Virus record (IMG/VR): IMGVR_UViG_3300043410_002361
Span: 1 to 26,151 of that record
Origin: a virus
DNA: 26,151 bases
Reading direction: 5' to 3' (one strand)
This document shows, in pieces, positions 1-16,478 of this stretch. Position 1 is the stretch's first letter; the number at the start of each line of letters is the position of its first letter. A program made the position numbers and the translations under genes. The notes under the pieces were generated by a model. That model was not told the origin of the DNA, made no database searches, and saw nothing but the letters and a program-made list of their open reading frames with translations.

Positions 1-34
1 GACGTTCTCCATTAGACAAAATATTAGTTTGCAT
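1..34 (-). CDS. Start of a truncated gene running off the left edge
   Basis: ATG at 34-32 overlaps the TAA of the upstream oxygenase gene by one base (TAATG). A purine-rich ribosome site (GAAGAGGT) lies about 6 nt upstream. Only MQTNILSNGER is visible before the window ends, so no function can be assigned. The tight coupling shows that the modification operon continues beyond the left edge. Confidence 0.55.
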   Translation of the reverse strand, partial: MQTNILSNGER

Positions 35-786
35 TATTCTACCTCTTCTGCCTTGTATCTATTCCCCGTAGGGCTGATCCTATATCCGCTTTCACGAATT
101 CCCTTCCAGTCTTCCTGCTGATCTTTTTGCATAGCTCTCACTTCAGCCAACTCTTTTGCCCATTCATCACGAACTTCCTGTGGATAATCTGATTCATCTC
201 TATCATCCCAAAATGATCCGATTGTATACCTTACTCCATGCTTAATGACAGATACCTCATGCATGTTTTTATGTCCACCATGAAAAATAGCAAACATTCC
301 AGCTTCTGGCTTAATCTCAACATCACGTTCTCCATGGTTTACCTTGAATTTAAGTAGTCCACCTTCAAAATCTCCATTAAGGTACATAAAGCCAGCATAT
401 CTACTTCTAGTAAATGCACCCATAACTCCTTCGTTGCTTGAGTTATCAGAATGAAGTGGTGCAAAAGCACCTGGAAGCCATCTTTGAACATGGAAACTAA
501 TTTTAGACATTTTAGAAACATCTACTCCAGCCACGTCAGCAGCAGCCTGCTTGTATCTATTTAATAGTGTAGACATCCAATTATTTGGCAATCCAAATTG
601 AGCTAAGATTGGGTCATTATCTTCTGGATATCCTGCTGAGTATGACTCATAAAATGAAATCGCCTTCCAAAAGTCTGGGTCTCTTTCAGCATATGCAAGT
701 AGCATATTTAACGTCTTCTCGGACTCTTCATCTGTTAAAAAATTACGATAAAGATGAATATCGTCTGCTATTTTAGTAAGTTCCAT
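34..786 (-). CDS. 2OG-Fe(II) oxygenase, prolyl 4-hydroxylase-like
   Basis: Predicted non-haem iron dioxygenase that would couple 2-oxoglutarate decarboxylation to hydroxylation of a protein or small-molecule substrate. Counting from the start used here (250 aa), the iron triad is visible as H112-x-D114 (LHSD) and H176 (MHEV), with R186 of the GVRYTIG segment as the 2-oxoglutarate ligand. The strand motif YLNGDFEGG before the distal His is typical of the P4H/2OG-FeII_Oxy_3 fold. I chose the third in-frame ATG (786) because CAGGAATCAA sits just upstream; two earlier ATGs (804 and 801) have no Shine-Dalgarno. The start overlaps the preceding gene by 14 bp, so translation is probably coupled. The C-terminal 50 residues are charged and may be a helical tail. 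Substrate unknown. Confidence 0.88.
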   Translation of the reverse strand: MELTKIADDIHLYRNFLTDEESEKTLNMLLAYAERDPDFWKAISFYESYSAGYPEDNDPILAQFGLPNNWMSTLLNRYKQAAADVAGVDVSKMSKISFHVQRWLPGAFAPLHSDNSSNEGVMGAFTRSRYAGFMYLNGDFEGGLLKFKVNHGERDVEIKPEAGMFAIFHGGHKNMHEVSVIKHGVRYTIGSFWDDRDESDYPQEVRDEWAKELAEVRAMQKDQQEDWKGIRESGYRISPTGNRYKAEEVE

Positions 787-1669
787 TTGATTCCTGACCA
801 TCATTCATTTGAGTTTTTCTAATTGCTTGCATTTCACCATAAGTGATTTGCTTTCCATCCTTAAGATAAAGCATATTACGCTTATCTTCTTCATCAATTC
901 TATCAATTTCCATTTTAGACCATCTATAAGCCCCATACTTCTTTTGATTTGCAAGCCACTCCTCTGATCCATCATAATCAAACATTACAAAGTTTCTAAT
1001 GAAGAATTTATTGCCATCTGGAATAGTTTTTACACCATGGAAATACGGTTCACCCGATGGGAAAATAACAATATCTCCCGCTTTTGGCTTATGGTTTGTA
1101 ATATCATCATTAACAAAAAATTCGATATCTCCGCCATTATAGTTATCATTAATATAAAATGTGCATGTTGTATGAAATTTTTCTCCAGGCATATCTCGTT
1201 GTGAGATAATATAGTCTGTATGATATTGCATTGTCATTTTATTTTCAAGAACATCAATCTTATTAAAATATTTGCACCAAGATTGTCCGCTATATCTTGC
1301 ACCTTCAGGAATCTTGATTCCAGTGTGCTTAAAATAATGAGACAAAGCTCTATCGTATGAAACAGCAATTTCATCAAACAATGTCTTTTCATCATCAAAT
1401 CTTTGTCCCTTTTCAGCAATTGCTTGCTCTGGCTCACTCTTGCACTGTGTATATGTTCCAAAATGTGCCCATGGTTCCCACTTTTTGAAAAAATATTTTC
1501 CTTCAGCATCAGAATCTGAGGCCATCATAACCTCATATGCTTTTTCTGGATTACTAAGCATGTTTCTGTATACAATAACTCCTGGGTATAATTCTTCCCA
1601 TTGTAGATCATCGATATCATCTCTAAGATTTAAACTATGCACCTCTTCAGTGCCTCCTTGTGGATACAT
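773..1669 (-). CDS. 2OG-Fe(II) oxygenase, prolyl 4-hydroxylase-like, with C-terminal extension
   Basis: A 298-aa P4H-type dioxygenase. The iron-binding residues are H150-x-D152 (YHTDY) and H211 (YFHGV). K221 stands where the sister enzymes have Arg; Lys at this position is the usual 2-oxoglutarate ligand of eukaryotic prolyl 4-hydroxylases. The INDNYNGGDIEF segment (about 173-184) is the conserved strand-turn before KPKAGDIVIFPS. The start at 1669 is preferred over ATG 1726 because AGGAGA lies 7 nt upstream and it falls one base after the TAG of the upstream gene. About 65 residues after the catalytic fold (AYRWSKMEIDRIDEED onwards) resemble the tail of its left neighbour and may bind substrate or partner. 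It is co-transcribed with the other oxygenases. Substrate unknown. Confidence 0.88.
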   Translation of the reverse strand: MYPQGGTEEVHSLNLRDDIDDLQWEELYPGVIVYRNMLSNPEKAYEVMMASDSDAEGKYFFKKWEPWAHFGTYTQCKSEPEQAIAEKGQRFDDEKTLFDEIAVSYDRALSHYFKHTGIKIPEGARYSGQSWCKYFNKIDVLENKMTMQYHTDYIISQRDMPGEKFHTTCTFYINDNYNGGDIEFFVNDDITNHKPKAGDIVIFPSGEPYFHGVKTIPDGNKFFIRNFVMFDYDGSEEWLANQKKYGAYRWSKMEIDRIDEEDKRNMLYLKDGKQITYGEMQAIRKTQMNDGQESNGTY

Positions 1670-1670
1670 A

Positions 1671-2417
1671 CTATTCTCCTTTTCCTGTAAACAACTTTTT
1701 ATATTCTGGATTATCAAAACCACCAATATATCCTGCTGGTGGCTGATTCTCTCCTGTGTGTCTTTCTATTGTCCAGAAAAACGGTGATGTAAACCTATTT
1801 CCAGATTTAATAGGTCTAACCCCATGTGCATAATACCTATCACCTGGGAAAAAATAAGCAGATCTTGGTTTTGGTTTAAACTCAATTCCATGCTGTGGGA
1901 AGTATAGTTCTCCACCTTCGTAATCATCATTAAAATAAAACAAAGATGCAATATCATACCAAGGGAAGTCATTCGGTCTTCCAATTTCATGCCCCACCCA
2001 AAACTCTTTATCGGCATGTGGTTCTTGTCTTGCTCCTACTGGCCACTTGACAATTGCTGGGCCTGTTTCTTTTGCATCTACTTGGAAAAATTTATCTACT
2101 TCAACCTTTAACCTAGCAATCATACTATAGATTAAATCTAGTATCGTTGGATCTGAAGCCATTAGAGACTTATATGTGCAAACACGGTCTGCCCAAATAT
2201 TATGGTCATAAAGCACCAAACCATCTTCATCAACATGTGTTTCTGTTATATCCCAAATCTTATTAGTTATAGCAAAGTTAATTAATCGTTGCTGCTCTTC
2301 TTCTGTTAAGAAGTTTTCCAGCTCAACAATATTATCTGATGATGTTCCAAAAAATCCAGAAGGAGTTATAGATTTTGGAGCTTGATGCTTATTCCACTCA
2401 TTGGAAAATTCATTCAT
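1671..2417 (-). CDS. 2OG-Fe(II) oxygenase, prolyl 4-hydroxylase-like
   Basis: A 248-aa dioxygenase with a complete active site: H134-x-D136 (EPHADKE), H198 (YYAHGV) and R208 (SGNRFTS) for 2-oxoglutarate. FNDDYEGGELYFP (162-174) and KPKPRSAYFFPGD are the standard strands of the P4H double-stranded beta-helix. The start at 2417 has GGAGAAATAAA directly upstream and begins one base after the TAA of the preceding gene; an in-frame ATG at 2471 would bury the start inside that gene. The N-terminal 30 residues (NEWNKHQAPKSITPSGFFG) precede the fold. The regular gene-to-gene junctions indicate a single operon. It could act on a virion protein made from the adjacent fibre genes, but nothing in the sequence fixes the substrate. 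Confidence 0.88.
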   Translation of the reverse strand: MNEFSNEWNKHQAPKSITPSGFFGTSSDNIVELENFLTEEEQQRLINFAITNKIWDITETHVDEDGLVLYDHNIWADRVCTYKSLMASDPTILDLIYSMIARLKVEVDKFFQVDAKETGPAIVKWPVGARQEPHADKEFWVGHEIGRPNDFPWYDIASLFYFNDDYEGGELYFPQHGIEFKPKPRSAYFFPGDRYYAHGVRPIKSGNRFTSPFFWTIERHTGENQPPAGYIGGFDNPEYKKLFTGKGE

Positions 2418-2418
2418 T

Positions 2419-3045
2419 TTATTTCTCCGATGTTTCTGTAAGGTATGACGCATAACTATTTTCATATGCATAAATTGAAGTTAGATATCTATTTCCTTCA
2501 ATAATCTCTAATACTCCGTGATCTAGGTTGCTAGAAAATACAACCATTGATCCAGTATCTGGTTTAATTTTTATATTTTCATTAGGAAAGTTAATTTCTC
2601 CACCAATATAATTATCGTTTAGGTAAAGCAAGGCCGTTACGACTGGTTTAGCAAACTGACCATCCTTCTTTATATATCCATATGCATCTTGATGAGCTGC
2701 CATTGATGATCCTGGTTGATATTCTCTTATAACAAAAGGTCCTGAGTCAAGATTATCTGACGATATCAAAATATTATTAGATTCAGCAAATCTAGAGATT
2801 AGCTCTTTAAATTTTTCATACACAGGAGTATATTGAGAAGATTCCTTGCCTATATGTGAGCATCTTCCAATTATTGTATTCCCACTACCTTTGTCATTGT
2901 AGACACCGCCATCGTTTGTGTAGCTTTGCCATTCTTGAATAGGGATACTGTTTATGATTTCATGTGAATCCAAGAAGGCATTTTTTACTTCCCATATATT
3001 AGGTCTATGATGAATAATCTCTAGACTATTATCTTGTGTTCCCAC
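2419..3045 (-). CDS. 2OG-Fe(II) oxygenase, prolyl 4-hydroxylase-like, probable GTG start
   Basis: A short P4H-type dioxygenase (208 aa from the GTG). It shows H118-x-D120 (AAHQDAY), H176 (LDHGV) and R186 (GNRYLTS), with LYLNDNYIGGEINFP in between. An ATG at 3060 opens the frame, but the bases after it read TTAGGAGGAGCA and look like a Shine-Dalgarno for the GTG at 3045; the ATG itself has no ribosome site. A TATAAT at 3083-3078 could give a short leader containing that site. The N-terminal part is unlike the other copies, so the array is not a recent tandem duplication. The gene is separated from the DUF6065-like gene by 38 bp, the widest gap in the cluster. Confidence 0.85.
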   Translation of the reverse strand: MGTQDNSLEIIHHRPNIWEVKNAFLDSHEIINSIPIQEWQSYTNDGGVYNDKGSGNTIIGRCSHIGKESSQYTPVYEKFKELISRFAESNNILISSDNLDSGPFVIREYQPGSSMAAHQDAYGYIKKDGQFAKPVVTALLYLNDNYIGGEINFPNENIKIKPDTGSMVVFSSNLDHGVLEIIEGNRYLTSIYAYENSYASYLTETSEK

Positions 3046-3083
3046 TGCTCCTCCTAACATATATATGATACCACTAAATTATA

Positions 3084-3782
3084 TTATTTGTCTTTTATAT
3101 TTAGGTCTATTTTTTTTACTTGATGTCTACCTAAAATATTACCTAAATGGTCAGTGGCATTTCGATAAAAATCTGCCCATTTGCCACTTCTATTCATTTC
3201 ATAAATTTTATTAGAATATGCATTCATATCTACACTATTAGACTTTCTGTTTTCCCATGTATCAAATACAATTGAAGATCCTTGTAGTTGCTCTAAATCA
3301 ATCGGAAGAATTGATACAACTGGGGTATTAGCTTTAATCGTAATCTCTTCATTTGGTCTAGTAATCATACAAGCTAATGGTAATTCTCCGCTATACCAAG
3401 ATGTACTTATTAGGGTAGTAAATGGCTGAAACCCATCTCTAAAATAGTTTGGAACTGGCATATGTAATAAAGTTACATTTTCATCACTTTGAAACATTAT
3501 TCCACTATGAAAGCTAATTGTTCCATTTGCTCTGCCAGAATATGCATACTTTTCACCTTTAAGTATTTTTACATGGTCTGGACTAGAATCTGAAATGCCG
3601 TCCCAAATAAAGGTAATATCTTCTGGAAACGACAGCTCCCAGCCTAGCTTATTTGCAAGACTTACTGGAAAACAATGATAAGCATGAGCTTCCCATGTAT
3701 TATCCATCCAATCTCTTTTTACGTTTAGAGGGTTTAAATTTGCATACCCTTCACGTATTTTATAAGCTTTTAGATTATACAT
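3084..3782 (-). CDS. DUF6065-like protein of unknown function
   Basis: A 232-aa soluble protein with no signal peptide or membrane segment. AYHCFPVSLANKLGWEL (about 34-50), followed by a WDG segment, resembles the conserved N-terminal block of the DUF6065 family. I recall this from memory and could not search it. The middle has FHSGIMFQ and the VPNYFRDGFQPFTTLISTSW segment, then PVVSILPIDL, which suggests a beta-rich double-sheet fold. The start at 3782 has AAGGACAAA upstream and overlaps the previous gene by 8 bp; the long upstream extension to 3866 is read-through of the other frame. It sits between two oxygenases in the same operon, so it may be a partner or a further modifying enzyme. No catalytic motif is recognised. 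Confidence 0.75.
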   Translation of the reverse strand: MYNLKAYKIREGYANLNPLNVKRDWMDNTWEAHAYHCFPVSLANKLGWELSFPEDITFIWDGISDSSPDHVKILKGEKYAYSGRANGTISFHSGIMFQSDENVTLLHMPVPNYFRDGFQPFTTLISTSWYSGELPLACMITRPNEEITIKANTPVVSILPIDLEQLQGSSIVFDTWENRKSNSVDMNAYSNKIYEMNRSGKWADFYRNATDHLGNILGRHQVKKIDLNIKDK

Positions 3783-4497
3783 TTTGTCCTTGGGCTTGTT
3801 CTTTTTGAACCCATCGTTGACGCATTTGCATAAACTCTGGATTATGAGCATGATCATTATAGTCAAGCATTGTTACAACAGAATACTTTGTTCCTGTTTG
3901 AACTGGTTGTGCAATATGAGAAAATATATAGGTAGAAGGGAAAATATATAGATCTCCAGCTTTAGGTTTAATTGTTAAGCCAAGTTTAGGAAAACTAAGC
4001 TCTCCTCCAGTATAATCATCATTTGGGTATCCAACTAGAGATACAGTTGCGCTATAAGAAAATCCATCATCTGCATGCTCCTGAAAATGCTGTCCAGGAA
4101 TGTATCTGATACAGTTCATTACTTCCCAATATGTCATCTTAATCGAATGCTTTGTGCAATAATCAGTTACTGGGTTTATCTGGGCCTTCTTAAGGTCATT
4201 CCATAAATTAGCAACTAATAACTCTGTTTTATTTGTTGGATTTTTGATTTCTCCAACCTTAATGTCATGGCAATCCCTGTAGTCTGGTCTTCTATCTGAA
4301 TAACCAACAAACCCAAAAGTCCACTTAAAGGAATCAACATTTTCTTCTTCAGCAGACATGCCGATTTTATCTAGCCTATTGATTAAGTCTAGATCTTTTG
4401 TAAACACATCCCTATAAACCCAAACACCTGGAAAAAGCTCTTCGGCATTACTCCAAGTCTTATCAATGCTATCTGCAAAACTATAGTTATATACCAT
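3775..4497 (-). CDS. 2OG-Fe(II) oxygenase, prolyl 4-hydroxylase-like
   Basis: A 240-aa dioxygenase with H141-x-D143 (QEHADDG), H194 (FSHIAQP) and K204 (GTKYSVV) as the predicted 2-oxoglutarate ligand. NDDYTGGELSFPKLG (159-173) and KPKAGDLYIFPS follow the family pattern. The N-terminal ELFPGVWVYRDVF segment (20-32) closely resembles ELYPGVIVYRNML of the 773-1669 enzyme, so these two are sister genes. A G-rich site (GGGGGT) lies 6 nt before the ATG, and a strong promoter (TTGACT/TATAAT) lies in the 33-bp gap and the end of the previous gene. This gene and those downstream may therefore be expressed apart from the fibre operon. The C-terminal tail is Gln-rich. Confidence 0.88.
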   Translation of the reverse strand: MVYNYSFADSIDKTWSNAEELFPGVWVYRDVFTKDLDLINRLDKIGMSAEEENVDSFKWTFGFVGYSDRRPDYRDCHDIKVGEIKNPTNKTELLVANLWNDLKKAQINPVTDYCTKHSIKMTYWEVMNCIRYIPGQHFQEHADDGFSYSATVSLVGYPNDDYTGGELSFPKLGLTIKPKAGDLYIFPSTYIFSHIAQPVQTGTKYSVVTMLDYNDHAHNPEFMQMRQRWVQKEQAQGQNV

Positions 4498-4516
4498 TTT
4501 TACCCCCTATTTTCAT

Positions 4517-4544
4517 ATTATATCATAAAATCAATGATAGTCAA
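4517..4544 (-). promoter_or_regulatory. Sigma70-type promoter for the oxygenase genes
   Basis: Read on the minus strand: TTGACT (4544-4539), a 16-bp spacer ending in TGA, and TATAAT (4522-4517), i.e. both hexamers plus an extended -10. The -35 lies in the last codons of the hydroxylase gene. The transcript would have a leader of roughly 13 nt containing GGGGGT before the ATG at 4497. Confidence 0.6.
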
Positions 4545-5115
4545 GCATGTCGTCTGGAAGTACATCAACTATAACATGTACTCTATCTATATTGCTTTTA
4601 TTAGATACAGAGTGTGGAAGTTGATTATTAATCTCATACCAACCACCGACCTCCATATGTATTGTATTATCCATAACTGTAAATGTTACATCTTTATGAG
4701 TAATCAGGGGGATATGAATTCTTCTAGAGTAATGAAGAATTGCACCGCCGTCAGTATGTTTATATACCTCAGAGTTTGCAGTTAATTTGATTATTTCACA
4801 TCTAATTATTTTTCCACTATAGTACTCTTCAATTTTATTATAAATATCTTGCAATTCATTTTGAGCATCTATTGTTTTTAAGTTGTTAAAATACTCGGTT
4901 TTAATAGGTGTGCCAGGTACCCATTCATAATCTGTTGCACATAATCTATACATAAAGGTATTTCTATGCGTCATACCCTTTTCTTGTCTGCTTGTATCTT
5001 CAAACCATTCATCATTAAAGCTAGATACTTCATCAATCAAGGCAGATACATTAAATGATCCTAAGTTTTGAATTGTCCACTTAGTATCTTTTTTTACTCT
5101 TTTGTACATACTCAT
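4531..5115 (-). CDS. Aspartyl/asparaginyl beta-hydroxylase-like 2OG oxygenase
   Basis: A 194-aa protein matching the Asp_Arg_Hydrox type (PF05118) of 2-oxoglutarate oxygenase rather than the P4H type. It has H120-x-D122-G-G, then SRRIHIPLITH (130-140), VGGWYEINNQLPHSV (156-170) with H168 as the distal iron ligand, and R178-V-H-V as the 2-oxoglutarate ligand. In this family the enzymes hydroxylate Asp, Asn or other side chains of peptides; in phages the substrate is unknown. Two starts are possible: ATG 5115, with AGGGG only 3 nt away, and ATG 5109, with AGGGG 9 nt away. Either overlaps the sulfotransferase gene by about 30 bp, implying coupled translation. This brings a second oxygenase class into the same operon. 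Confidence 0.85.
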   Translation of the reverse strand: MSMYKRVKKDTKWTIQNLGSFNVSALIDEVSSFNDEWFEDTSRQEKGMTHRNTFMYRLCATDYEWVPGTPIKTEYFNNLKTIDAQNELQDIYNKIEEYYSGKIIRCEIIKLTANSEVYKHTDGGAILHYSRRIHIPLITHKDVTFTVMDNTIHMEVGGWYEINNQLPHSVSNKSNIDRVHVIVDVLPDDMLDYH

Positions 5116-5785
5116 ATACCCCTAAATCCACCTGATTCAATTCTAGCACTCTATTTATTTGCTCTGGAGTGAGTTTAATTCCTATGTCTGGAGATAAATT
5201 AGAGCGATCTCTATGTTTGAATGTTGTAAAACCAAAATGCTTCGATAATGATTTATTTAAATCTTCTAAAAATAAATTATGATTATCTAGGGTATATGCA
5301 TAAAACCTATCTACATTTTCAAGAACCTTGTTTATATCTGTAGAATAGTCTTCTAGGTACCAGTTATTATTTACGGCATCCTGTATATACTTATGCCCCT
5401 CATTAAATCTTAAAATATTGGTGCTACCAGTTAAAAATTTAGACTGAGAGTTTGCTTGAATCTCAGCTTGATCTCCATAAAGCCAATCCTGTAGCTTTCT
5501 TTCAGCTTCTTCTCCCATACGTACTAAGCCAGTAGTGTAGTTAAAGTAGCTAATAAATCTATCTACAGGATGACGAATCACTGTAAAGACATCTGGGTTA
5601 TCCATGTGTTTCAATGGCATCAAGCCAAAATGACCACCAACCATTTTACTGGTCTTAATTTTATTTATATCTATATCAGTTCTATTAGATATAAAATGTG
5701 GTACCCCACCTGAAATTAGATGGGGTAAAACATTTTGCTTGACATATATCCCAGATGTTCTAGGTATATGTAAGTGGTAAATCAT
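5081..5785 (-). CDS. PAPS-dependent sulfotransferase-like protein
   Basis: A 234-aa protein with the two signatures that bind the sulfate donor PAPS. HIPRTSG (6-12) matches the 5'-phosphosulfate loop (HIPKTGG type), and VIRHPVDRFISYF (69-81) matches the 3'-phosphate loop. GGHFG (50-54) is a further conserved element of the Sulfotransfer_2/heparan-sulfate 2-O group. The predicted reaction is transfer of sulfate to a hydroxyl on a sugar or protein. The gene starts just after the Hint-domain gene (stop at 5788) with no convincing Shine-Dalgarno, so it probably depends on translational coupling, and its end overlaps the hydroxylase gene. A hydroxylated residue or a fibre glycan made by this operon is a possible acceptor; that is inference. 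Confidence 0.85.
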   Translation of the reverse strand: MIYHLHIPRTSGIYVKQNVLPHLISGGVPHFISNRTDIDINKIKTSKMVGGHFGLMPLKHMDNPDVFTVIRHPVDRFISYFNYTTGLVRMGEEAERKLQDWLYGDQAEIQANSQSKFLTGSTNILRFNEGHKYIQDAVNNNWYLEDYSTDINKVLENVDRFYAYTLDNHNLFLEDLNKSLSKHFGFTTFKHRDRSNLSPDIGIKLTPEQINRVLELNQVDLGVYEYVQKSKKRY

Positions 5786-5787
5786 TA

Positions 5788-7152
5788 TTAAGCGAATAGC
5801 TTCTTATTGTGTACCACTAGGTTGCCTGCTATGAATAAGTCATGAGGAGCTGCGTCGAATTCGTACACATTTCTCTGAGCGTCAAGCATTGTAATTTCTT
5901 TTACTTCAATTTCTGAGAAAGAGCCATCATCTTGACGTTCTACCAACATGTCTCCAATTTCTAGAGCGCCAGTTGTTCCGAAGAAGTAAACTCCATTTCT
6001 CTTCATGAACAGTGTTTGCTCAAGTGAGAATCGTCTATCGTGGTTACCATTAATAATCATTGTAACATCCTTAACGTGTGTAATGATGTTTGACACCTGT
6101 GTTGTTGTCATTTCAATGTTATTTACTGATTCACTAGACCATGTATATGGATCAAGTTCGAATTCGTTGTCTAGACCGTCCCATTTTACTGAAACAATTG
6201 TGTCTCCAATAACGACATCCTTAGCCTTCTTCCATCCATGTGAACCATCTTCTAGAATCACAGCAACTGGAGTATCTTCATCTACACAACCAAAGTATGG
6301 AGGTGAGAAGAATCCTGGAGGGCTAAAGAACCCTGGAGGTGAGAAGAATCCTGGAGGGCTAAAGAACCCTGGAGGTGCAAAGAATGCAGGTGGGAAGAAC
6401 GGTGGCGCAAAGAACCCAGGTGGGAAAAATGGCGGTGCGAAAAACCCTGGTGGAAAGAATGGTGGAGCAAAGAATCCTGGTGGAAAGAATGGTGGTGAGA
6501 AAAATGATGGAGGCAATGTAGTAACTGTATTAGAGTTAGCTGACGCTGCTGATCTTCCGTTAGCATTATCTGCATAAACGTTATAATATTGAGATGTATT
6601 TGCTGTATCTGCAATAGTTATAGATGTTGATGTAGTATTTCCAGAAGTACTATCTGAACCAAGTACATAGTAGTTTGAGATTGCCTTACCACCATTATTT
6701 GATGGAGCAGTCCAAGTTACAGTATCTGAGTCAACACCAGCTGTAGCAGTTCCAATTGTTGGAGCTCCAGGTACAGTTGTTGATAGTACTGATGCTGAGG
6801 TTGTTGTCAATCCATCTCCAAAACTATTCTTTGGTGTAATAGTAAATGTATAAGATACATTTGATGCTAATCCTTGAAATGTATATGATGTAGCTGGTGC
6901 TGTAACATTTGCTGTATATGTAGATGGTGTTGTTGTAATATCATAGGATGTTGCTGCTGTTGATGTTGATGGAACTGTCCATGCCAAAGTCATAGCTCCA
7001 CCAGTACCTGCAGCCGAAGCTGCAGATGTGGTGTTTGCTGTTGCTAAAAATGGTCTAGCCGTTCCGACATCAGTTGCAGTAAAACCTGTGACTGCTAATG
7101 GTGGGATTCTTGAATCCTGACCATCACTAAATCTACCCTGTAATTTTGCCAT
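5788..7152 (-). CDS. Virion protein with two FN3-like domains, Phe-Pro repeats and a C-terminal Hint (intein-like) domain
   Basis: A 454-aa multidomain protein. Residues about 16-127 and 128-213 look like two fibronectin type III domains (PTIGTATAGVDSDTVTWTAP, then NANGRSAAS). Residues 216-287 are Phe/Pro repeats: GFFAPPFFPP-type units, then GFFSPP units. Residues 289-449 form a Hint domain: it opens with C289-VDEDTPV, has LEIGDMLV (397-404), and ends with a typical intein C-block, EFDAAPHDLFIAG then VVH448-N449. Only KKLFA follows, so there is no real C-extein and the +1 residue is Lys, not Cys/Ser/Thr. The block-B motif TxxH seems to be S376-L-E-Q379, with Gln for His. Self-cleavage or ester formation at Cys289, as in bacterial intein-like domains, is therefore more likely than splicing. 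It is probably surface-exposed on the tail. Confidence 0.85.
   Translation of the reverse strand: MAKLQGRFSDGQDSRIPPLAVTGFTATDVGTARPFLATANTTSAASAAGTGGAMTLAWTVPSTSTAATSYDITTTPSTYTANVTAPATSYTFQGLASNVSYTFTITPKNSFGDGLTTTSASVLSTTVPGAPTIGTATAGVDSDTVTWTAPSNNGGKAISNYYVLGSDSTSGNTTSTSITIADTANTSQYYNVYADNANGRSAASANSNTVTTLPPSFFSPPFFPPGFFAPPFFPPGFFAPPFFPPGFFAPPFFPPAFFAPPGFFSPPGFFSPPGFFSPPGFFSPPYFGCVDEDTPVAVILEDGSHGWKKAKDVVIGDTIVSVKWDGLDNEFELDPYTWSSESVNNIEMTTTQVSNIITHVKDVTMIINGNHDRRFSLEQTLFMKRNGVYFFGTTGALEIGDMLVERQDDGSFSEIEVKEITMLDAQRNVYEFDAAPHDLFIAGNLVVHNKKLFA
6292..6507 (-). repeat. Phe-Pro tandem repeat array inside the Hint protein gene
   Basis: Two sub-arrays lie in frame: about four 30-nt units encoding a GFFAPPFFPP-type decapeptide (with drift), then about four 18-nt units encoding GFFSPP, which also form a 36-nt perfect duplication at 6299-6370. 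The reading frame is kept throughout, so selection acts on the peptide. Such arrays can change copy number by slippage or recombination. Confidence 0.85.
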
Positions 7153-7175: not shown

Positions 7176-9851
7176 TTAGTTAGTTAGGTCTCCGAAGATA
7201 GCCCATGTATTTGCAGCTGTCTTAAGTGCTGTTGCTACTGAGAACTGTCCTCTTAACTTTAATGCGTCTGATCCGTTGACCTTAGCCACCTGGAATGTTA
7301 CTCCAGCTGCAGCCACGAAGCTTGTTTGTCCTGCACCTAATTGCTGGAAGTCGATAGATGCTCCGACTGGATAGCTATAGGTTGCGTCTGTAGGAATTGT
7401 TACTGTGTTTGCAGAAGCAACGTTCATTTGTACAAAAGAATCTTTAACAAATGATGAGCTCAGTGTTATTGATGCTGTTTGTGCATTAATTGGTGTTAAT
7501 GAAGGTGTTGCTGCTACTGTCTGTACTGTACCATCTGAGAATGTGATACCTGTTGAATTGATTGTTGCTGCTCCAGAAAGATTTCCTTCAAGAGTTCCAA
7601 CCTTTAATGTATCATATGTAGCGCCAGTAAGTGAAATTGTTCCACCTGCAGGCTCTGTTGTTACGCCAGAAAAAAGTTTCCACTTTCCATCTGCATGGTC
7701 ACGTACAAGACCCATGTGCTGATATGTTCCAGAAATTGTTGCATGTCCGACGATACCAATATCATTAGCATTTGCTGCATTTCCTGTAGCAATATAGATA
7801 AGTGGATCTGATACCTCAAGGTTAGTTGCATTAACAGTTGTTGTTGTTCCAGCTACTGTTAGGTTTCCTGAAATTGTTACGTTAGGAACTGTTACGTCTC
7901 CTGTGAAAGTAGCTCCTGATAGAGAAGCTTTTCCACTAAGGGTTGTATTGATTGTAGAAAGATCTGATGTCAAGTTTGCAATCTTTGACTGAGCAATTGC
8001 TGCAGATGCATTAATATCAGCATTTACGATAGTTCCATCAGCAATCTTTGCAGATGTTACAGCTCCATCAGCAATGTCTCCTGTAGCTATTGTGCCGTCT
8101 GCAATCTTAGCTGAGGTAATTGCTCCATCGTTAACCTTTGCAGTTGTTACTGCAAGATCTGCAATCATTGCTGTTGCAACTGTACCTGTATCTGTTGTTG
8201 CTACAAGCTTTGATGTATCTGAGATACCATGGACACTTGTAGTAGCTGATTCGTGTGATGTAAGATTTGCAGCTGTTGCCTTAGCATTAAGCTGTGTCTG
8301 AATTGCTGATGTAACACCATTTACATATGAAAGCTCTGTAGATGAGATATCCCCAATTGTTGTTGTATTAGGAAGATTAACTGTTCCTGTAAACGATGCA
8401 TTTTCAATTGGTGCATAAGTTTGTGAAGCAACTGTTACATCTAGCTTATTATCAATTTGATTTTGAATATTAGCTGTTACTCCATTAATATATGAAATTT
8501 CTAGATCTGAAACTCCACCGACACGCTTCTGAACCTTACCAAAATCAAGAGCTGCTACGTTAGTAACCTCTGTGAATGTTGTAGAATAGCTAGATGCAAG
8601 GAATGAAACCCATTGAGCTACTGTCTTTGTCATTCCATTACTTGTTAGTGATTGTGCTGAAAGCCAAACTGTAGAATCTGCTACAGGATTTCCTTGTTCA
8701 TCTGTAAAGTCATGTGTGTATACACCTGTATTAAACGCATAGGCTGAACCAACAACATTTAATCCATATGTGCTAGATAATGATGCTTGCTTTTGTGCAA
8801 TCATTGAATTAGCATTAGACACATCTGACTGAAGAGTATTAATGTCTGATTCTGCAGTGTTTAATCTACCTGCTGCACTATCTAATTGATCTTGAATTGA
8901 GCTAGTTACACCATGAACTCTTTGTAGTTCTGCGTTTGTAACATCACCAATTTTTGCACCAGATGCTACTAGTGGACCAACTTCAAGTTGAGCTAATGGG
9001 GCATTAGCAAAATCAATAGCTGTACCTGGCTCTGACTGAAGACCATCAAAAATCTTCCACTTTCCATCTGTCGCATCACGCACAATACCTGTATGTTGAT
9101 ATGTTCCATCGTCGTATGCACCAACAACACCAATGTCTAGAGAGTTTGCAGAATTGCCAGAAGCTATGTAGATCATTGCATCTGTTACATCCAGGTTTGT
9201 TGCATTTACAGTCGTTGTTGTTCCATTTACAGTTAAATTACCAGATACTGTTACATCTGTTGCTGTTAAGGTATCATCTACAGTTAAATCTGTTGTTACG
9301 ATATTATTTGCATGTGTTGTACCGTTGAACTGTGTGCCATCATCTGTACGTGCAATATTTGCGTCCACATCAAGCTGTTCTGTAAGCGCATTCCATGTTA
9401 ATCCAACACCATCTGCAGAAGGCAATGTTGCAGCTACGTTATTAACAGCACCATCGACATAAGAAATTGTAGCTAGTTGAGCTGTATCTGCAATGCCATG
9501 AACATTTGTTGTTGCAGATGTATGACTAGATAAATCTCCAGCGACTGCATCAATATCTCCAGCTACTGTATTAAAGAAATTTGGATCGTCTCCAAGTGCT
9601 GCTGCAATCTCGTTTAGGGTATTAAGTAGCTCTGGAGCTCCATCAATAAGTCCATTAAGACTATCAATAGCTGAAGCTGCGTCAGTAAAGTATGTTAAAT
9701 CGACCCAGTGATTTACTCCATCACCGATCTTAAACTTGTTTGTATCGGACTCAAATCCAATTTCACCAGCAGCAAGGATAGGCCCGCTACCATTATTTAC
9801 AGAAATCCACTGCGCTGCAGTTCCTCTGCGCTGTTGCATTCTTGTTGCCAT
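7176..9851 (-). CDS. Large tail fibre protein
   Basis: An 891-aa protein. The N-terminus (TRMQQRRGTAAQW, then ILAAGEIGFESDTNKFKIGDG, 1-45) is the short beta domain found at the start of many phage fibres and the Mtd receptor-binding protein. The rest is repetitive. A block of about 92 residues occurs twice (201-293 and 659-752, sharing GTTTTVNATNL and YQH-G-VRD...DGKWK). An NGVTSAIQTQL-like unit occurs three times (312-323, 456-467, 511-521), and there is an ITSAKIADGTI-type repeat (570-615). These are typical of trimeric fibres. The C-terminus (about 785-891) has no repeats and may carry binding. The ATG has AAGGAGATATA upstream. It is presumably exposed on the virion and a candidate target of the downstream modification enzymes. 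Confidence 0.85.
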   Translation of the reverse strand: MATRMQQRRGTAAQWISVNNGSGPILAAGEIGFESDTNKFKIGDGVNHWVDLTYFTDAASAIDSLNGLIDGAPELLNTLNEIAAALGDDPNFFNTVAGDIDAVAGDLSSHTSATTNVHGIADTAQLATISYVDGAVNNVAATLPSADGVGLTWNALTEQLDVDANIARTDDGTQFNGTTHANNIVTTDLTVDDTLTATDVTVSGNLTVNGTTTTVNATNLDVTDAMIYIASGNSANSLDIGVVGAYDDGTYQHTGIVRDATDGKWKIFDGLQSEPGTAIDFANAPLAQLEVGPLVASGAKIGDVTNAELQRVHGVTSSIQDQLDSAAGRLNTAESDINTLQSDVSNANSMIAQKQASLSSTYGLNVVGSAYAFNTGVYTHDFTDEQGNPVADSTVWLSAQSLTSNGMTKTVAQWVSFLASSYSTTFTEVTNVAALDFGKVQKRVGGVSDLEISYINGVTANIQNQIDNKLDVTVASQTYAPIENASFTGTVNLPNTTTIGDISSTELSYVNGVTSAIQTQLNAKATAANLTSHESATTSVHGISDTSKLVATTDTGTVATAMIADLAVTTAKVNDGAITSAKIADGTIATGDIADGAVTSAKIADGTIVNADINASAAIAQSKIANLTSDLSTINTTLSGKASLSGATFTGDVTVPNVTISGNLTVAGTTTTVNATNLEVSDPLIYIATGNAANANDIGIVGHATISGTYQHMGLVRDHADGKWKLFSGVTTEPAGGTISLTGATYDTLKVGTLEGNLSGAATINSTGITFSDGTVQTVAATPSLTPINAQTASITLSSSFVKDSFVQMNVASANTVTIPTDATYSYPVGASIDFQQLGAGQTSFVAAAGVTFQVAKVNGSDALKLRGQFSVATALKTAANTWAIFGDLTN

Positions 9852-9884
9852 TATATCTCCTTGCTAGTAGATTGGAATAGTGCT

Positions 9885-9893
9885 ATTATAGCA
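9885..9893 (-). promoter_or_regulatory. Extended -10 promoter candidate before the large fibre gene
   Basis: TGCTATAAT on the minus strand (9893-9885), in the 47-bp gap before the fibre gene. Transcription would start near 9878 and give a leader of about 27 nt with AAGGAGATATA. No good -35 is visible. Confidence 0.4.
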
Positions 9894-9898
9894 TTATT

Positions 9899-10357
9899 TT
9901 AGTTAAAATTATCTATTGCTACTCCACCGTCCCATAGTGCATTCCATGATGTTAAATCATATGTACCTGCACTTGTGAGAACACCCGCTGCATTATAGAA
10001 ACCTGAATCAACGAACACGCTAACAATTAACCCATTGCCATCGATAGATGTATCGTGGATATGGTCTTGTAGAACTTCTGCATCCTGCAGGGTTGCTAGA
10101 GGTGTCCAAATTGAATTATAGAAAAAATGTACTCTTGATGTTACAGTATCAAGCCAAAACTGCCCTTCTGTAGCTGGTGATGGAGCGGTATCTCCAACCT
10201 GCATAGTTGCATTACCAGTAATTGCATCTACATACTCTTTTGTTGCTGCATGTAAATTTTCTGTTGGTGTACCGACCAAAACTGGTCCACCAAAAGATCC
10301 ACCAAGGGCAACAATTAACCCATTTTTGACTTTAAAATCTTTATCAACTGCTGCCAC
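9899..10357 (-). CDS. Small fibre or fibre-associated structural protein
   Basis: A 152-aa protein whose first 15 residues (DKDFKVKNGLIV) match the start of the next fibre upstream (AKDFKVKNGLVV), pointing to a shared attachment or trimerisation element. The ENLHAATKEYVDAI segment (33-46) is a known fibre motif of the ATKxYVD kind. SPATEGQFWLDTVTSRVHFFYNSIWTPL (59-86) looks like a beta-sandwich repeat often seen in fibre knobs. AAAGGAGAAACC precedes the ATG. It lies between two large fibre genes with short gaps in one transcription unit. The exact place in the virion is not known. Confidence 0.75.
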   Translation of the reverse strand: MAAVDKDFKVKNGLIVALGGSFGGPVLVGTPTENLHAATKEYVDAITGNATMQVGDTAPSPATEGQFWLDTVTSRVHFFYNSIWTPLATLQDAEVLQDHIHDTSIDGNGLIVSVFVDSGFYNAAGVLTSAGTYDLTSWNALWDGGVAIDNFN

Positions 10358-10379
10358 TTGGTTTCTCCTTTATTTTAAA

Positions 10380-12149
10380 TTATGCTAGTAATGTTCCAAC
10401 AACTGTAACTGTTGAGTTATTGTTAACTGTAGTTACACGAAGTCTTACATCTGTACCGCTTACATCTGCAGAGATGCTCATTGAAGAACCATTGGTTCCA
10501 ACTGTTGCATATTCTGTGATTGCAATATTGTCAGATGTATCGAGAGTAAGTATTACTTCTGATACCTCTGTATGAGTTCCATATGCTGTCTTAACAAAGA
10601 ACTTAGCTGAGCGATAGTCTGCCTTTGGGAAAGCATACGCTGTAACTGTTGAAGCAGTAGCAACAAGGCCAGTAGAAGAAGCTACCTGAGTCGCAACACT
10701 ATTAAGATCAACCTCTACGAAGTTTGGAGTAACAGCTTCAAGCGCAGAAACTGCACGTTCATCTGTGAAATATAGGTTGCTTGATCCTTCTTCAAGATCA
10801 TCAGTTGTAGAATCTGCTACACCGTTTTCTGCTGTAATAGTAAGAACACCAGCAACGTTAGCAGTAATTTGAATATTGCTCTTATTTGCATTTGTAAGAG
10901 CATCAACAACTACATCTCTTGCACGAGAATCTGTGTAGTAAAGGCTGTTTACGCCCTCTTCAATATCATCAGTTGTAAGTGCGCCGATTTCTGCATCTGT
11001 GTAAGACTTAGCATTGTTCTCCGCAGTAGTTGCTGCGCCTGCTGCATCATAATTAATTGCAAGACCGTCAGCATAGTTCTTTGCATTTTGCTCTGCAGTG
11101 TCTGCATAGTCTTGTGCTGAACTATCAAGTGCTGAAATTTCTTGATCAGTGTAAGAAACTGCGTTGCCATATGCTGCATCTGCTGCTCCTGCTGCATCGT
11201 AATTTGATGCAAGAGAATCTGCATATCCCTTAGCATTGTTTTCAGCAGTTGTTGCATAACCTTGTGCTGCTGAGTCAAGATCAGAGATTTCTGAATCAAC
11301 ATATGTTGTATCAGCCTTTGTTGCAACCAAATTAGCAACATCTGTTGCGTAGTTTGGATTATCAGCAATTGCTGCTGCCAACTCATTAAGAGTATCAAGC
11401 ATTTCTGGTGCTGAGTCTACAAGATCTGCTACTTTTTGATCAGTGTAGGCATTTGCATCTGAAAGTGCTGCATCTGCTGCACCAAGAGCATCATATGTTC
11501 CAGCAAGGTTTAGGTTAGTAATTGCTGAATCAATTGCATTATTGCGATCTGTAACTTCTGCTGAAATAGCATCATCGATTGCGTTGTTGCGATTTGTAAC
11601 TTCAGTTGAAATTGCAGAATCTGTATAATCATTTGCATTAGATTCTGCTGTATTTGCCTTAGAAGTTGCGTCATCAGATGCTGTTGAAATTGCTTCTGAC
11701 TTGGCGGTTGCAATTGCAGAATTACGATTTGTTACTTCTGTTGAAATTAATCCATCTGCATAACTTTCTGCTGCATCTTGTGCATCTGCTGCAGATCCTG
11801 CTGCATCCCAAAGACCAGCCTGAGCATCAATTGCTCTTTGATCTGTAAAGTACTTATTTGTACCTTCAGTTAAATCTGATGTTGAATGATTTGAAATATC
11901 TGATACTTGACCAGTTACATCACCAATAAGATCTGCTGTAATCTCCACTGCAGAAAATGAACCATTTTCATCACGAAGTACTACTGTATCTGGTGTAGCA
12001 TCTGATGTTGCTGATCCACCAATGAGACCAATGATGTAGTTTTGATCATCTGTGCTCTTTGTAAGAACATCATTTCCAGCAACTGTAGCTGTAGATCCTT
12101 CAACGACAAGACCATTTTTTACTTTAAAGTCTTTTGCGACTGTAGCCAT
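10380..12149 (-). CDS. Long coiled-coil tail fibre protein
   Basis: A 589-aa fibre. After the shared N-terminal DFKVKNGLVV element, residues about 110-385 are Ala/Asn/Asp-rich with many heptad-like units (SAISTEVTNRNNAID, QDYADTAEQNAKNYADG), as expected of a trimeric coiled coil. TEGTNKYFTDQRA-type units appear three times (about 93-107, 395-411, 451-466), a motif known from phage fibres. The DSAPEMLDTLNELAAAIADN segment also occurs in the 891-aa fibre as GAPELLNTLNEIAAALGDD, so the two genes have exchanged modules. The last 110 residues form a non-repetitive beta-rich tip. The start has AAGGAGATAATAA upstream. It is likely part of the host-recognition apparatus. Confidence 0.85.
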   Translation of the reverse strand: MATVAKDFKVKNGLVVEGSTATVAGNDVLTKSTDDQNYIIGLIGGSATSDATPDTVVLRDENGSFSAVEITADLIGDVTGQVSDISNHSTSDLTEGTNKYFTDQRAIDAQAGLWDAAGSAADAQDAAESYADGLISTEVTNRNSAIATAKSEAISTASDDATSKANTAESNANDYTDSAISTEVTNRNNAIDDAISAEVTDRNNAIDSAITNLNLAGTYDALGAADAALSDANAYTDQKVADLVDSAPEMLDTLNELAAAIADNPNYATDVANLVATKADTTYVDSEISDLDSAAQGYATTAENNAKGYADSLASNYDAAGAADAAYGNAVSYTDQEISALDSSAQDYADTAEQNAKNYADGLAINYDAAGAATTAENNAKSYTDAEIGALTTDDIEEGVNSLYYTDSRARDVVVDALTNANKSNIQITANVAGVLTITAENGVADSTTDDLEEGSSNLYFTDERAVSALEAVTPNFVEVDLNSVATQVASSTGLVATASTVTAYAFPKADYRSAKFFVKTAYGTHTEVSEVILTLDTSDNIAITEYATVGTNGSSMSISADVSGTDVRLRVTTVNNNSTVTVVGTLLA

Positions 12150-13383: not shown

Positions 13384-13941
13384 ATGAGAGACAACAGAGT
13401 ATGGATAGGCTTAATAGCCTTAGTTGGTATTATTGCTCCTTTTAGCAATGCTGCTAATGCTACTGAGGCTAAATTTACAATGAGAACTGCAACAGTTACA
13501 CAGGATGCTCCTAAAACAGCATCTTTGGTTGCCAAACCTAGATCTATGGTAATGCTAAAAAAGTATGCAAATGCTGCTGCACTGACAGATCTAGATTTAG
13601 TAAAACTATTGCAGGCTGTGGGGTTTACAGGTAAAGGTCTTAGAACTGCCTGGGCTGTTGCCAAGTCAGAATCTAACGGACAACCAATCAGATACAATGG
13701 AAATAGAAAGACTGGGGACAGCTCTTTTGGACTTTTCCAAATTAATATGATCAGCCAACTTGGTCCTGATCGCAGAGAGCGTTACAATCTGAAATATAAC
13801 GCAGAGCTTCTTAATCCTGTGAAAAATGCACAGATCGTATTTAAGATGACACAGGGTGGTACAAACTGGAAAGCATGGAAATATGCTAAGACCCCTGCTG
13901 TTAAGAAGTGGCTCAAGAAATTTCCAGCACATTTAGTATAA
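13384..13941 (+). CDS. Secreted lysozyme/lytic transglycosylase-like endolysin
   Basis: A 185-aa protein with an N-terminal signal peptide: basic start, hydrophobic 7-20, and a likely cleavage after ANA at about residue 26. The catalytic domain spans about 60-180. KSE96SNGQPIRYNGN, then TGDSSFGLFQINM (110-122), is the goose-lysozyme/SLT-like active site, with E96 as the probable catalytic acid. W162, in NWKAW, is typical of the C-terminal groove. It would cleave the glycan strands of peptidoglycan. A strong AGGAGG lies 8 nt before the ATG. The gene stands alone on the plus strand with its own promoter, leader hairpin and terminator, so its expression is separate from the fibre operon. It could be an endolysin exported by the host or a virion-borne wall enzyme; with a signal peptide, the former is favoured. 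Confidence 0.82.
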   Translation: MRDNRVWIGLIALVGIIAPFSNAANATEAKFTMRTATVTQDAPKTASLVAKPRSMVMLKKYANAAALTDLDLVKLLQAVGFTGKGLRTAWAVAKSESNGQPIRYNGNRKTGDSSFGLFQINMISQLGPDRRERYNLKYNAELLNPVKNAQIVFKMTQGGTNWKAWKYAKTPAVKKWLKKFPAHLV

Positions 13942-13955
13942 AATAAAATATAATT

Positions 13956-13986
13956 AGCCCCTGGGAGAAATCCTGGGGGCTTTTTA
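13956..13986 (+). terminator. Rho-independent terminator after the lysin gene
   Basis: AGCCCCTGGG - AGAAAT - CCTGGGGGCT, with a ten-pair stem including two G-T pairs, then TTTTT. On the other strand the stem is followed by an AT-rich tract, so it may also stop the convergent collagen-like transcript, whose stop codon lies at 13986-13984. Confidence 0.85.
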
Positions 13987-14697
13987 TATTACAGATATAT
14001 AAATTCTTTTTGGAACCAATAATGCATCATTGTCGGTTCTAATTTGAGGTATAGCAGAAACATACTTCATATTTTCATCATCAAGATATACAGTATGCTC
14101 AAGAGAAATGTCATAGTCAAATTGATATTTTAAAGATCCAGCTAAAGTTGTTGGATATTTTGTGGTTCCATCAACAAACGTTCTAAACCAAACCTCTGTA
14201 TTATTTTGCAGTGTGGTTATTTGTACATCATAACGAATTGTTACAATTGATCCTAGCTTAAGGCCTTTTAAATTAATTTTTTGACTTGTAGGAACCCATA
14301 AAGATGTTCCAGATTCTGGCAAATATAATTCATTTACGTTTATTTTTGAATCAAATCCAAAACTAACCCAACCATCATCTCCATATTGAGATCCTAGCTT
14401 GATCTGTCTTTTATCTGAACTTCCATACACTGCCCAACCGTGTAATTGACCTGAAGGAGAAAGAGAGCTTATTCCATCTTTACCGTCTTTACCGTTTTTA
14501 CCTGGTTTCCCAGGTTCACCCTTAGGTCCTTGCTCTCCAGGCTCTCCTTTAGGCCCCTGAGGGCCTTTTTCACCCTGTGGTCCTTGTGGCCCTGGAACAG
14601 AAATAAAAGAAACTTGCTGTTCTAAAGAATATGGCTGTTTTGCACTATCTGCATATGTTTTTTTCTTAGGTTCTGGGAACTCCATGCTTGTTGCCAT
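13984..14697 (-). CDS. Collagen-like virion protein
   Basis: A 237-aa protein. Residues 36-75 are an uninterrupted run of about 13 collagen GXY triplets rich in Pro, Lys, Glu and Gln (GPQGEKGPQGPKGEPGEQ). This predicts a triple-helical stalk. The first 35 residues (EPKKKTYADSAKQPYSLEQQ) would anchor it. The C-terminal 160 residues form a beta-rich domain (GQLHGWAVYGSSDKRQIKLG ... GWVSFGF) that probably trimerises and may bind the host. Several triplets carry Pro or Lys at the Y position (GEP, GPK, GKP), the position hydroxylated in animal collagen. The five P4H-like enzymes in the window make this an obvious candidate substrate. AGGGCAAC precedes the ATG. Confidence 0.85.
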   Translation of the reverse strand: MATSMEFPEPKKKTYADSAKQPYSLEQQVSFISVPGPQGPQGEKGPQGPKGEPGEQGPKGEPGKPGKNGKDGKDGISSLSPSGQLHGWAVYGSSDKRQIKLGSQYGDDGWVSFGFDSKINVNELYLPESGTSLWVPTSQKINLKGLKLGSIVTIRYDVQITTLQNNTEVWFRTFVDGTTKYPTTLAGSLKYQFDYDISLEHTVYLDDENMKYVSAIPQIRTDNDALLVPKRIYISVI

Positions 14698-15881: not shown

Positions 15882-16478
15882 CTATCCAATCTGATTTACT
15901 GTTAGTATTATAGATGGAATTGCTGGATGTAGTGTTGCTCCAGATCCAACTGCTGCTTCATATTCAATTACAGTATTTGAACTTGTTGAAGACCACATAA
16001 TTTCATAATAATCATTTGCTTCAGCATCTACAAAGAAATTCCATGCTGCTACATAATATGGATTATTAGCAGTAATTGCAACTTTTGTATTTGAATTTTC
16101 AACGGCTGTGCCATTTTTAGCAAGCCAAATATTTATAATTCCAGAACTATTAGTTTGATGAAGTTGTGCAGAAAACGCAATATTGTATTTACCAGCATTT
16201 GCAATAGCTATCTGAGTTTTATTGGATCCATTAATAGAAATACCGTTAGCAAAATCAGTTGTTCTAAAACACATCGCCTGAATTGAATTGGTTGTGCCAG
16301 TTTGATCTACTTCATCAAAAAATGATCCATAATAAGACGATGCAACGCTTCCAGCATCTCCTTTTGGACCTTGTGCTCCAGTAGATCCTGTATCACCCTT
16401 GTCGCCTTTTGGTCCAGTCGGTCCTGTTGGGCCAGGTACTCCATCAGTACCATCATGAGAGTCAGAAAAACGACTCAT
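15882..16478 (-). CDS. Collagen-like protein with C1q-like tip
   Basis: A 198-aa protein. Residues 10-43 are 11 GXY triplets (GVPGPTGPTGPKGDKGDTG), a short triple-helical stalk. Residues about 48-198 look like a C1q/TNF-type jelly roll: NAGKYNIAFSAQLHQTNSSG, then INIWLAKNG, PYYVAAWNFFVDAEANDYYE and a final SIILTVNQIG strand. This C-terminal domain is common at the tips of phage fibres and probably trimerises and binds host glycans. The ATG overlaps the TGA of the preceding gene (ATGA). X and Y positions hold several Pro, Thr and Lys, so it is a second candidate for hydroxylation or glycan attachment. Confidence 0.85.
   Translation of the reverse strand: MSRFSDSHDGTDGVPGPTGPTGPKGDKGDTGSTGAQGPKGDAGSVASSYYGSFFDEVDQTGTTNSIQAMCFRTTDFANGISINGSNKTQIAIANAGKYNIAFSAQLHQTNSSGIINIWLAKNGTAVENSNTKVAITANNPYYVAAWNFFVDAEANDYYEIMWSSTSSNTVIEYEAAVGSGATLHPAIPSIILTVNQIG

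Follow-up and report, generated by a model that had tools for sequence, protein, structure and literature searches.

A row of 2-oxoglutarate-dependent oxygenases beside an aromatic/proline-repeat fibre gene: a probable prolyl hydroxylation system in uncultured phages

The virus record IMGVR_UViG_3300043410_002361 of IMG/VR (26,151 bases, hereafter the window) contains a row of genes for 2-oxoglutarate- and Fe(II)-dependent (2OG-Fe(II)) oxygenases adjoining a fibre gene with aromatic/proline repeats. A repeat gene of this kind and the oxygenase row nearly always occur side by side, which makes it probable that the phages carrying them hydroxylate prolines in the fibre they encode. That the array is a system dedicated to peptidyl-prolyl hydroxylation of the phage's own fibre, in which proline pairs (PP) recur, is the explanation we regard as reasonably probable. 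2OG oxygenases (PHROG 61) are very common in aquatic phages. For one large group of uncultured phages, the array supplies a specific pair of enzyme and substrate that can be put to the test, and if this explanation is right, many phage oxygenases lacking a known purpose would gain a testable substrate.

Eight reading frames, all on the minus strand, fill positions 34-5785 and either overlap by 8-35 bp or are separated by gaps of 1-33 bp. They are listed below with the adjoining fibre genes and a more distant oxygenase; curated Pfam cut-offs are 27 bits for PF13640, 22.6 for PF05118 and 22 for PF03567.

34-804, minus strand: ox1, 2OG-Fe(II) oxygenase resembling prolyl 4-hydroxylase (P4H-like), 256 amino acids (aa); PF13640, 34.7 bits; iron triad; conserved in syntenic arrays
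773-1669, minus strand: ox2, P4H-like 2OG-Fe(II) oxygenase, 298 aa; PF13640, 35.2 bits; orthologues 64-81% identical in more than 30 contigs
1671-2417, minus strand: ox3, 2OG-Fe(II) oxygenase resembling P4H and prolyl 3-hydroxylase (P3H), 248 aa; PF13640, 30.0 bits; profile matches P3H1 and P4H
2419-3060, minus strand: ox4, P4H-like 2OG-Fe(II) oxygenase, 213 aa; accessory, in few relatives; PF13640, 44.3 bits
3084-3782, minus strand: DUF6065 protein, core member of the array; PF19541, 115.8 bits
3775-4497, minus strand: ox5, P4H-like 2OG-Fe(II) oxygenase, 240 aa; PF13640, 43.1 bits; AlphaFold2 (AF2) model
4531-5115, minus strand: oxygenase resembling aspartyl/asparaginyl hydroxylase (AspH-like), 194 aa; accessory, paired with the sulfotransferase; PF05118, 38.5 bits
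5081-5785, minus strand: sulfotransferase of the 3'-phosphoadenosine-5'-phosphosulfate (PAPS) type, 234 aa; accessory; PF03567, 28.4 bits; motifs HIPRTSG and RHPVDRFISYF
5788-7152, minus strand: fibre protein, the proposed substrate, 454 aa; two fn3 domains, (FFxPPx/FFPPG)n repeats and a C-terminal Hint domain, from Pfam and the translation
6295-6504, minus strand: aromatic/proline repeat segment of this protein, read from the translation; FFSPPFFPPGFFAPPFFPPGFF...FFSPPYF and FFSPPFFPPGFFAPP... repeats
7176-9851, minus strand: tail-fibre-like protein, 891 aa, upstream of the repeat gene; PHROG tail fibre/structural families (e.g. 1.4e-13, 3.4e-13)
17404-17994, plus strand: ox7, diverged 2OG-Fe(II) oxygenase outside the array; PHROG 61, 3.4e-12; PF13759, 17.4 bits, below the cut-off

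A preliminary description of this DNA had proposed six intact 2OG-Fe(II) oxygenases and a PAPS-type sulfotransferase lying end to end next to fibre genes. This layout was confirmed: ox1 to ox5 all exceed the PF13640 cut-off (30-44 bits), the sixth enzyme belongs to PF05118, the triads are intact, and the array adjoins the fn3/repeat/Hint gene, which has the tail-fibre-like gene upstream of it. The seventh oxygenase mentioned there exists and has an intact triad as well, but it is far more divergent and lies alone on the other strand, outside the array. What had been overlooked was the DUF6065 gene, the repeat nature of the adjacent fibre gene and at least two oxygenases past the window edge. 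In contig L001, whose shared genes are 100% identical to those of the window at the protein level, the array extends beyond this edge and two further 2OG enzymes follow ox1 (9868-10527 and 10561-11430).

The association of the repeat gene with the array was studied from both sides. A search of IMG/VR with ox2 yielded 34 contigs, nearly all of which, as far as their sequence extends, have their genes in one order: the repeat fibre gene comes first, in some contigs the sulfotransferase and AspH-like genes follow, and then ox5, one or two copies of DUF6065, ox3, ox2, ox1 and further oxygenases. The core enzyme nearest to the repeat gene is usually ox5; the repeat gene stays beside the array even where its C-terminal domain is quite different. 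For the forward test, a degenerate nucleotide pattern encoding FFxPPGFFxPP was run against IMG/VR without regard to the enzymes and matched at least 119 stretches; oxygenases were scored with an iterated hidden Markov model seeded with the window oxygenases. Among the matches listed, 67 repeat genes had at least 3 kb of sequence downstream, and for 64 of them a same-strand oxygenase lay within that distance; upstream, none was detected (0/53). A strict count per locus gave 63/67, or 45/46 clusters when loci were grouped at 90% identity. The four failures of the strict count were L067, L124, L158 and L121; the last one has an overlapping oxygenase frame, and in L067 a second repeat copy in the same stretch possesses the array. 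In L067 (892-1377), L084, L124 and L158, a small PASTA-like repeat protein that ends in a Cys-rich tail is encoded without an oxygenase beside it. In L067 and in the contig of L066 and L084, the Cys-rich-tailed copies are second copies beside an array-linked one, and those of L124 and L158 may be second copies too.

For the converse test, loci were picked by DUF6065 or ox3 profiles and at least 2.5 kb of upstream sequence was required. All 85 loci (43 clusters) had an aromatic/proline repeat gene upstream, a criterion that was fixed after diverged repeats had been seen. Fourteen of them lack the exact FFxPP form and carry FFPPHFPP, PPYFPPFF or FFPFFPP repeats instead. Hence the repeats diverge yet keep PP pairs and aromatic residues, as expected if the enzymes need PP pairs. 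In control viral loci, aromatic/proline repeat genes occurred once in 236 loci (2.16 Mb), and a scan of reversed proteins gave no hits. Oxygenases were rare at loci with (PPG)4 collagen-type fibres (6/120; downstream 0/59) and at GPxGPx loci (8/120), so the link is not general to fibre genes or to proline-rich proteins. By the same counts, collagen proteins with GXY repeats were ruled out as general partners of phage oxygenases. One exception was noticed in a marine cyanophage of the Kyanoviridae (MH319751.1; L298, 4461-6696), in which the gene for an ox5-like oxygenase lies 47 bp downstream of that for a PPG-rich collagen-like fibre; this is possibly an independent pair of prolyl hydroxylase and substrate.

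All seven enzymes of the window possess the HxD...H iron triad and, about ten residues past the distal His, the Arg or Lys that serves as the 2OG ligand: H118/D120/H182/R192 in ox1, H150/D152/H211/K221 in ox2, H134/D136/H198/R208 in ox3, H123/D125/H181/R191 in ox4, H141/D143/H194/K204 in ox5, H120/D122/H168/R178 in the AspH-like enzyme and H110/D112/H160/R170 in ox7. Among orthologues of ox1, ox2, ox3 and ox5, invariance at the triad and ligand positions is 95% or higher. As nonsynonymous divergence (dN) is 0.08-0.35 and synonymous divergence (dS) exceeds 1 in nearly every pair (one pair is saturated), the array genes are under purifying selection. Folds were compared by a structural model for ox5 and by a sequence profile for ox3, the remaining enzymes being assigned by their Pfam and PHROG families. 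The ox5 profile matched prolyl 4-hydroxylase best (1.6e-7), that of ox3 human prolyl 3-hydroxylase 1 (6e-7) and prolyl 4-hydroxylase (9e-7). The AF2 model of ox5 has a mean predicted local distance difference test score (pLDDT) of 86.5, and its structural matches are almost exclusively peptide-acting prolyl hydroxylases; an algal P4H solved with a (Ser-Pro)5 peptide ranks first, followed by enzymes of the chlorovirus PBCV-1 and of the bacterial collagen type. According to this model ox5 has a prolyl-hydroxylase fold, which does not by itself fix the substrate. Among solved proteins, the AspH-like enzyme is matched best by L-proline cis-4-hydroxylase (E 1.6e-4), so its membership in PF05118 does not fix its substrate.

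These data bear on two readings in which the enzymes would not act on virion proteins at all. One is that they modify nucleobases, like enzymes of the TET/JBP or AlkB type, or small metabolites. A sub-threshold Tet_JBP match of ox4 (E 0.007), the label DNA endonuclease of some PHROG relatives and the dUTPase-like model of DUF6065 point in this direction, but the best full matches are peptidyl-prolyl hydroxylases, the array is situated among fibre genes and not among replication genes, and the fold similarity of DUF6065 is weak and gives no clue to activity. We consider such an activity very improbable. Just as improbable is a role in auxiliary metabolism, i.e. a consumption of 2-oxoglutarate that alters the nitrogen signalling of the host. 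This has been proposed for cyanomyoviruses (PMC3037559), but it leaves unexplained the fixed synteny with the repeat fibre gene, the presence of many diverged, intact enzymes and their peptide-hydroxylase fold.

More weight has to be given to the possibility that the array and the repeat gene merely travel together in the tail module of one lineage, with no enzymatic action between them. The sample comprises few loose groups, and the stretch is part of a structural module: fibre genes precede it and a portal gene often follows. On the other hand, the association outlasts different fibre scaffolds (fn3, PASTA-like, immunoglobulin-like, S74-tailed), an inversion of ox3, exchanges of accessory genes and many C-terminal tips, and a divergence of the repeats that keeps PP and aromatic residues, while collagen-type phage fibres occur without oxygenases. 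Linked inheritance alone is therefore a rather unlikely explanation. It is also conceivable that the oxygenases act elsewhere on the virion, for example on the variable tip at the C terminus or on adjacent fibres, and not on the proline repeats. Several fibre genes lie upstream, collagen-like (GXY) tail-fibre proteins encoded at 13984-14697 and 15882-16478 of the window are possible further substrates, and the pair of AspH-like enzyme and sulfotransferase follows one subtype of tip. However, the core enzymes are constant across very diverse tips, which comprise several Hint types as well as S74, Cys-rich and very short forms, and we think it unlikely that the repeats are spared.

Hydroxylation of the repeat fibre thus remains the explanation that fits best, and with it the suggestion of the preliminary description that a system for the modification of virion proteins is encoded here, since repeat gene and array co-occur in both directions; the ordered sulfation step suggested there found no support as a general scheme. 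Several observations nevertheless weigh against it. The 67 loci of the forward test fall into only five loose megablast groups, so that much of the count reflects shared ancestry and the numbers are inflated. The structural matches of ox5 have 14-20% identity and template modelling (TM) scores of about 0.5-0.6, by which a substrate is not fixed, and prolyl hydroxylases are abundant in the PDB. The P4H of a chlorovirus hydroxylates proline peptides, yet hydroxyproline was not detected in virions (PMC7019647). Finally, in several contigs of 115-120 kb, five of 11 PF13640 genes are located at the repeat gene; the others have no proline-rich neighbour and some lie by replication genes. The oxygenases of these phages are consequently not only there for the repeat substrate, and in several of these genomes the repeat fibre explains roughly half of the PF13640 enzymes. 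In a related genome (L289, 3741-6890), three tandem oxygenases of 337-362 aa are encoded between genes that by eye look RecA-like and single-strand-binding-like, which suggests a role different from that of the repeat-fibre array.

If the fibre is the substrate, ox5, ox3, ox2, ox1 and the enzymes encoded beyond the window would hydroxylate prolines of the PP pairs in its (FFxPPx)n segment during virion assembly. The diverged enzymes would probably share out these prolines, according to the first or second P of a pair, the 3- or 4-position of the ring or different flanking residues. Hydroxyproline may render this very hydrophobic segment stiffer and more soluble. The DUF6065 protein might assist hydroxylation in some way. 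Its gene is present in 84 of the 93 loci that have both the repeat gene and ox5, and an AF2 model (pLDDT 84.3) revealed a weak Foldseek resemblance to the beta-clip of dUTPase and dCTP deaminase (best E 5e-4), a fold that is therefore only predicted for this protein. The idea that DUF6065 is another 2OG enzyme was dismissed because of this match, weak as it is. A further family that by eye resembles a distant DUF6065 paralogue was seen within the array of 39 loci (representative L105, 3007-3747). No paper on DUF6065 was found in the openly licensed literature searched.

In a minority of the phages, including the one studied here, the AspH-like enzyme and the sulfotransferase accompany a particular Hint domain and probably modify this tip. 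Both genes were present in nine of the 93 loci with repeat gene and ox5, and these nine are exactly the loci whose fibre has the Hint tip CxDxDT...VVHNxK, which none of the 84 others has (Fisher p = 1e-12). The sulfotransferase has the 5'-phosphosulfate and 3'-phosphate binding motifs (HIPRTSG and RHPVDRFISYF), whose positions are kept in 14 sequences. Since sulfotransferase, AspH-like gene and tip form a contiguous cassette, both joint inheritance and action on the tip are in agreement with this distribution. The preliminary description had envisaged ordered hydroxylation and then sulfation of the fibre; as a general scheme this has to be rejected, because the sulfotransferase is rare and linked to one Hint subtype. 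In a related phage genome (L290, 5243-7001), a second pair of sulfotransferase and AspH-like genes was observed at a distance from the repeat fibre; a protein with a signal-peptide-like start is encoded in the same segment.

The fibre gene lies two bases from the sulfotransferase gene and has an fn3 match of 42 bits. Its Hint domain (5788-6294) begins at a Cys and ends with VVHN, followed by KKLFA; the Pfam intein match of 21.1 bits is below the cut-off of 35.8. As the +1 residue is Lys, cleavage or ligation is likelier than splicing. Judging from these residues, cleavage is possible and splicing unlikely. In the relatives, several other Hint types stand in its place, or S74-like, Cys-rich or very short ends.

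A few other phages would employ a different accessory enzyme. In four relatives (L030, L032, L051, L058), a gene for an N-acetylglucosamine (GlcNAc) transferase of the PF11397 type lies beside the repeat gene or the first oxygenase, in place of the AspH-like and sulfotransferase genes; in L034 it is located beside an oxygenase without a visible repeat gene. Two of the transferases were confirmed by Pfam and the others by a profile built from these two, an assignment at family level without a solved match. The family PF11397 includes the enzyme that adds GlcNAc to the hydroxyproline of Skp1. These neighbours hint at hydroxyproline as the oxygenase product and support it without being proof. The likeness to the Dictyostelium system of Skp1 P4H and hydroxyproline GlcNAc-transferase is thus limited to the Pfam family of a transferase in some relatives. 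Capping of the fibre by glycans, raised in the preliminary description, is possible in these few relatives but not by this route in the window, which has no PF11397 GlcNAc-transferase.

P4H enzymes and collagen modification are already known from viruses of eukaryotes, and oxygenases are a frequent annotation in phages. The P4H of PBCV-1 (vCPH, PDB 5c5t; rank 5 for the ox5 model) is virus-encoded like ox5 and has the same prolyl hydroxylase fold, but it is the product of a single gene in an algal giant virus, without an array and without an FFxPPx fibre. A mimivirus lysyl hydroxylase (6ax7) is also among the fold matches of ox5. Mimivirus hydroxylates and glycosylates its own structural protein with collagen repeats (PMC8968730). 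There, however, lysines in collagen GXY repeats are modified in a eukaryotic virus, whereas the window derives from a phage with PP/aromatic repeats and many separate P4H-like enzymes. The closest solved sequence relatives of ox5, also close to ox3, are bacterial collagen-type P4H enzymes (PDB 3itq, 5hv0), which hydroxylate (PPG)n peptides (PMC8968730) and differ in being cellular, present in single copy and directed at a collagen-like substrate. Cyanophage 2OG-Fe(II) oxygenases belong to the same family as the window enzymes (PHROG 61), occur in several copies per genome and are structurally close to human EGLN3 (PMC12774648). Their published role in 2OG signalling is speculative, and in five cyanophage records examined no FFxPPx gene was present. 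A survey calls the viral use of prolyl 4-hydroxylase 'cryptic' (PMC9301287). In the openly licensed literature searched, no description was found of hydroxylated phage fibres, of the FFxPPx repeat or of a link between such repeats and an oxygenase array.

It is tempting to speculate, with considerable reservation, that these proteins constitute a new class of hydroxyproline-rich phage fibre: an aromatic/proline polymer without sequence relation to collagen that would be matured by a dedicated set of position-specific prolyl hydroxylases. Some phages would then cap it with a glycosyltransferase, others with an Asp/Asn hydroxylase and a sulfotransferase that act on a self-processing Hint tip. 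If this were true, phage fibres would be rich in hydroxyproline, a modification familiar chiefly from animals, plants and algae, and (FFxPPx)n would represent a novel type of modified structural protein, possibly of use in materials.

For the window DNA, the sulfotransferase, DUF6065 and the PASTA-type repeat protein, no close phage isolate was found. Among 50,697 phage records, the PASTA-type protein had no match and the repeat protein of the window matched one, through the Hint domain only. A bacterial origin of the repeat was discarded: 84,980 species genomes contained nine stretches, and L284, the one of them that was read, is unlike a coding repeat array. Without a PHROG match, the gene at 13384-13941 (plus strand) of the window looks by eye like one for a lytic transglycosylase or lysozyme. 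Directly after the oxygenase array of L001 (11444-14393) there is a gene of the luciferase-like monooxygenase type and then a ribonucleotide-reductase-like gene, both named by eye.

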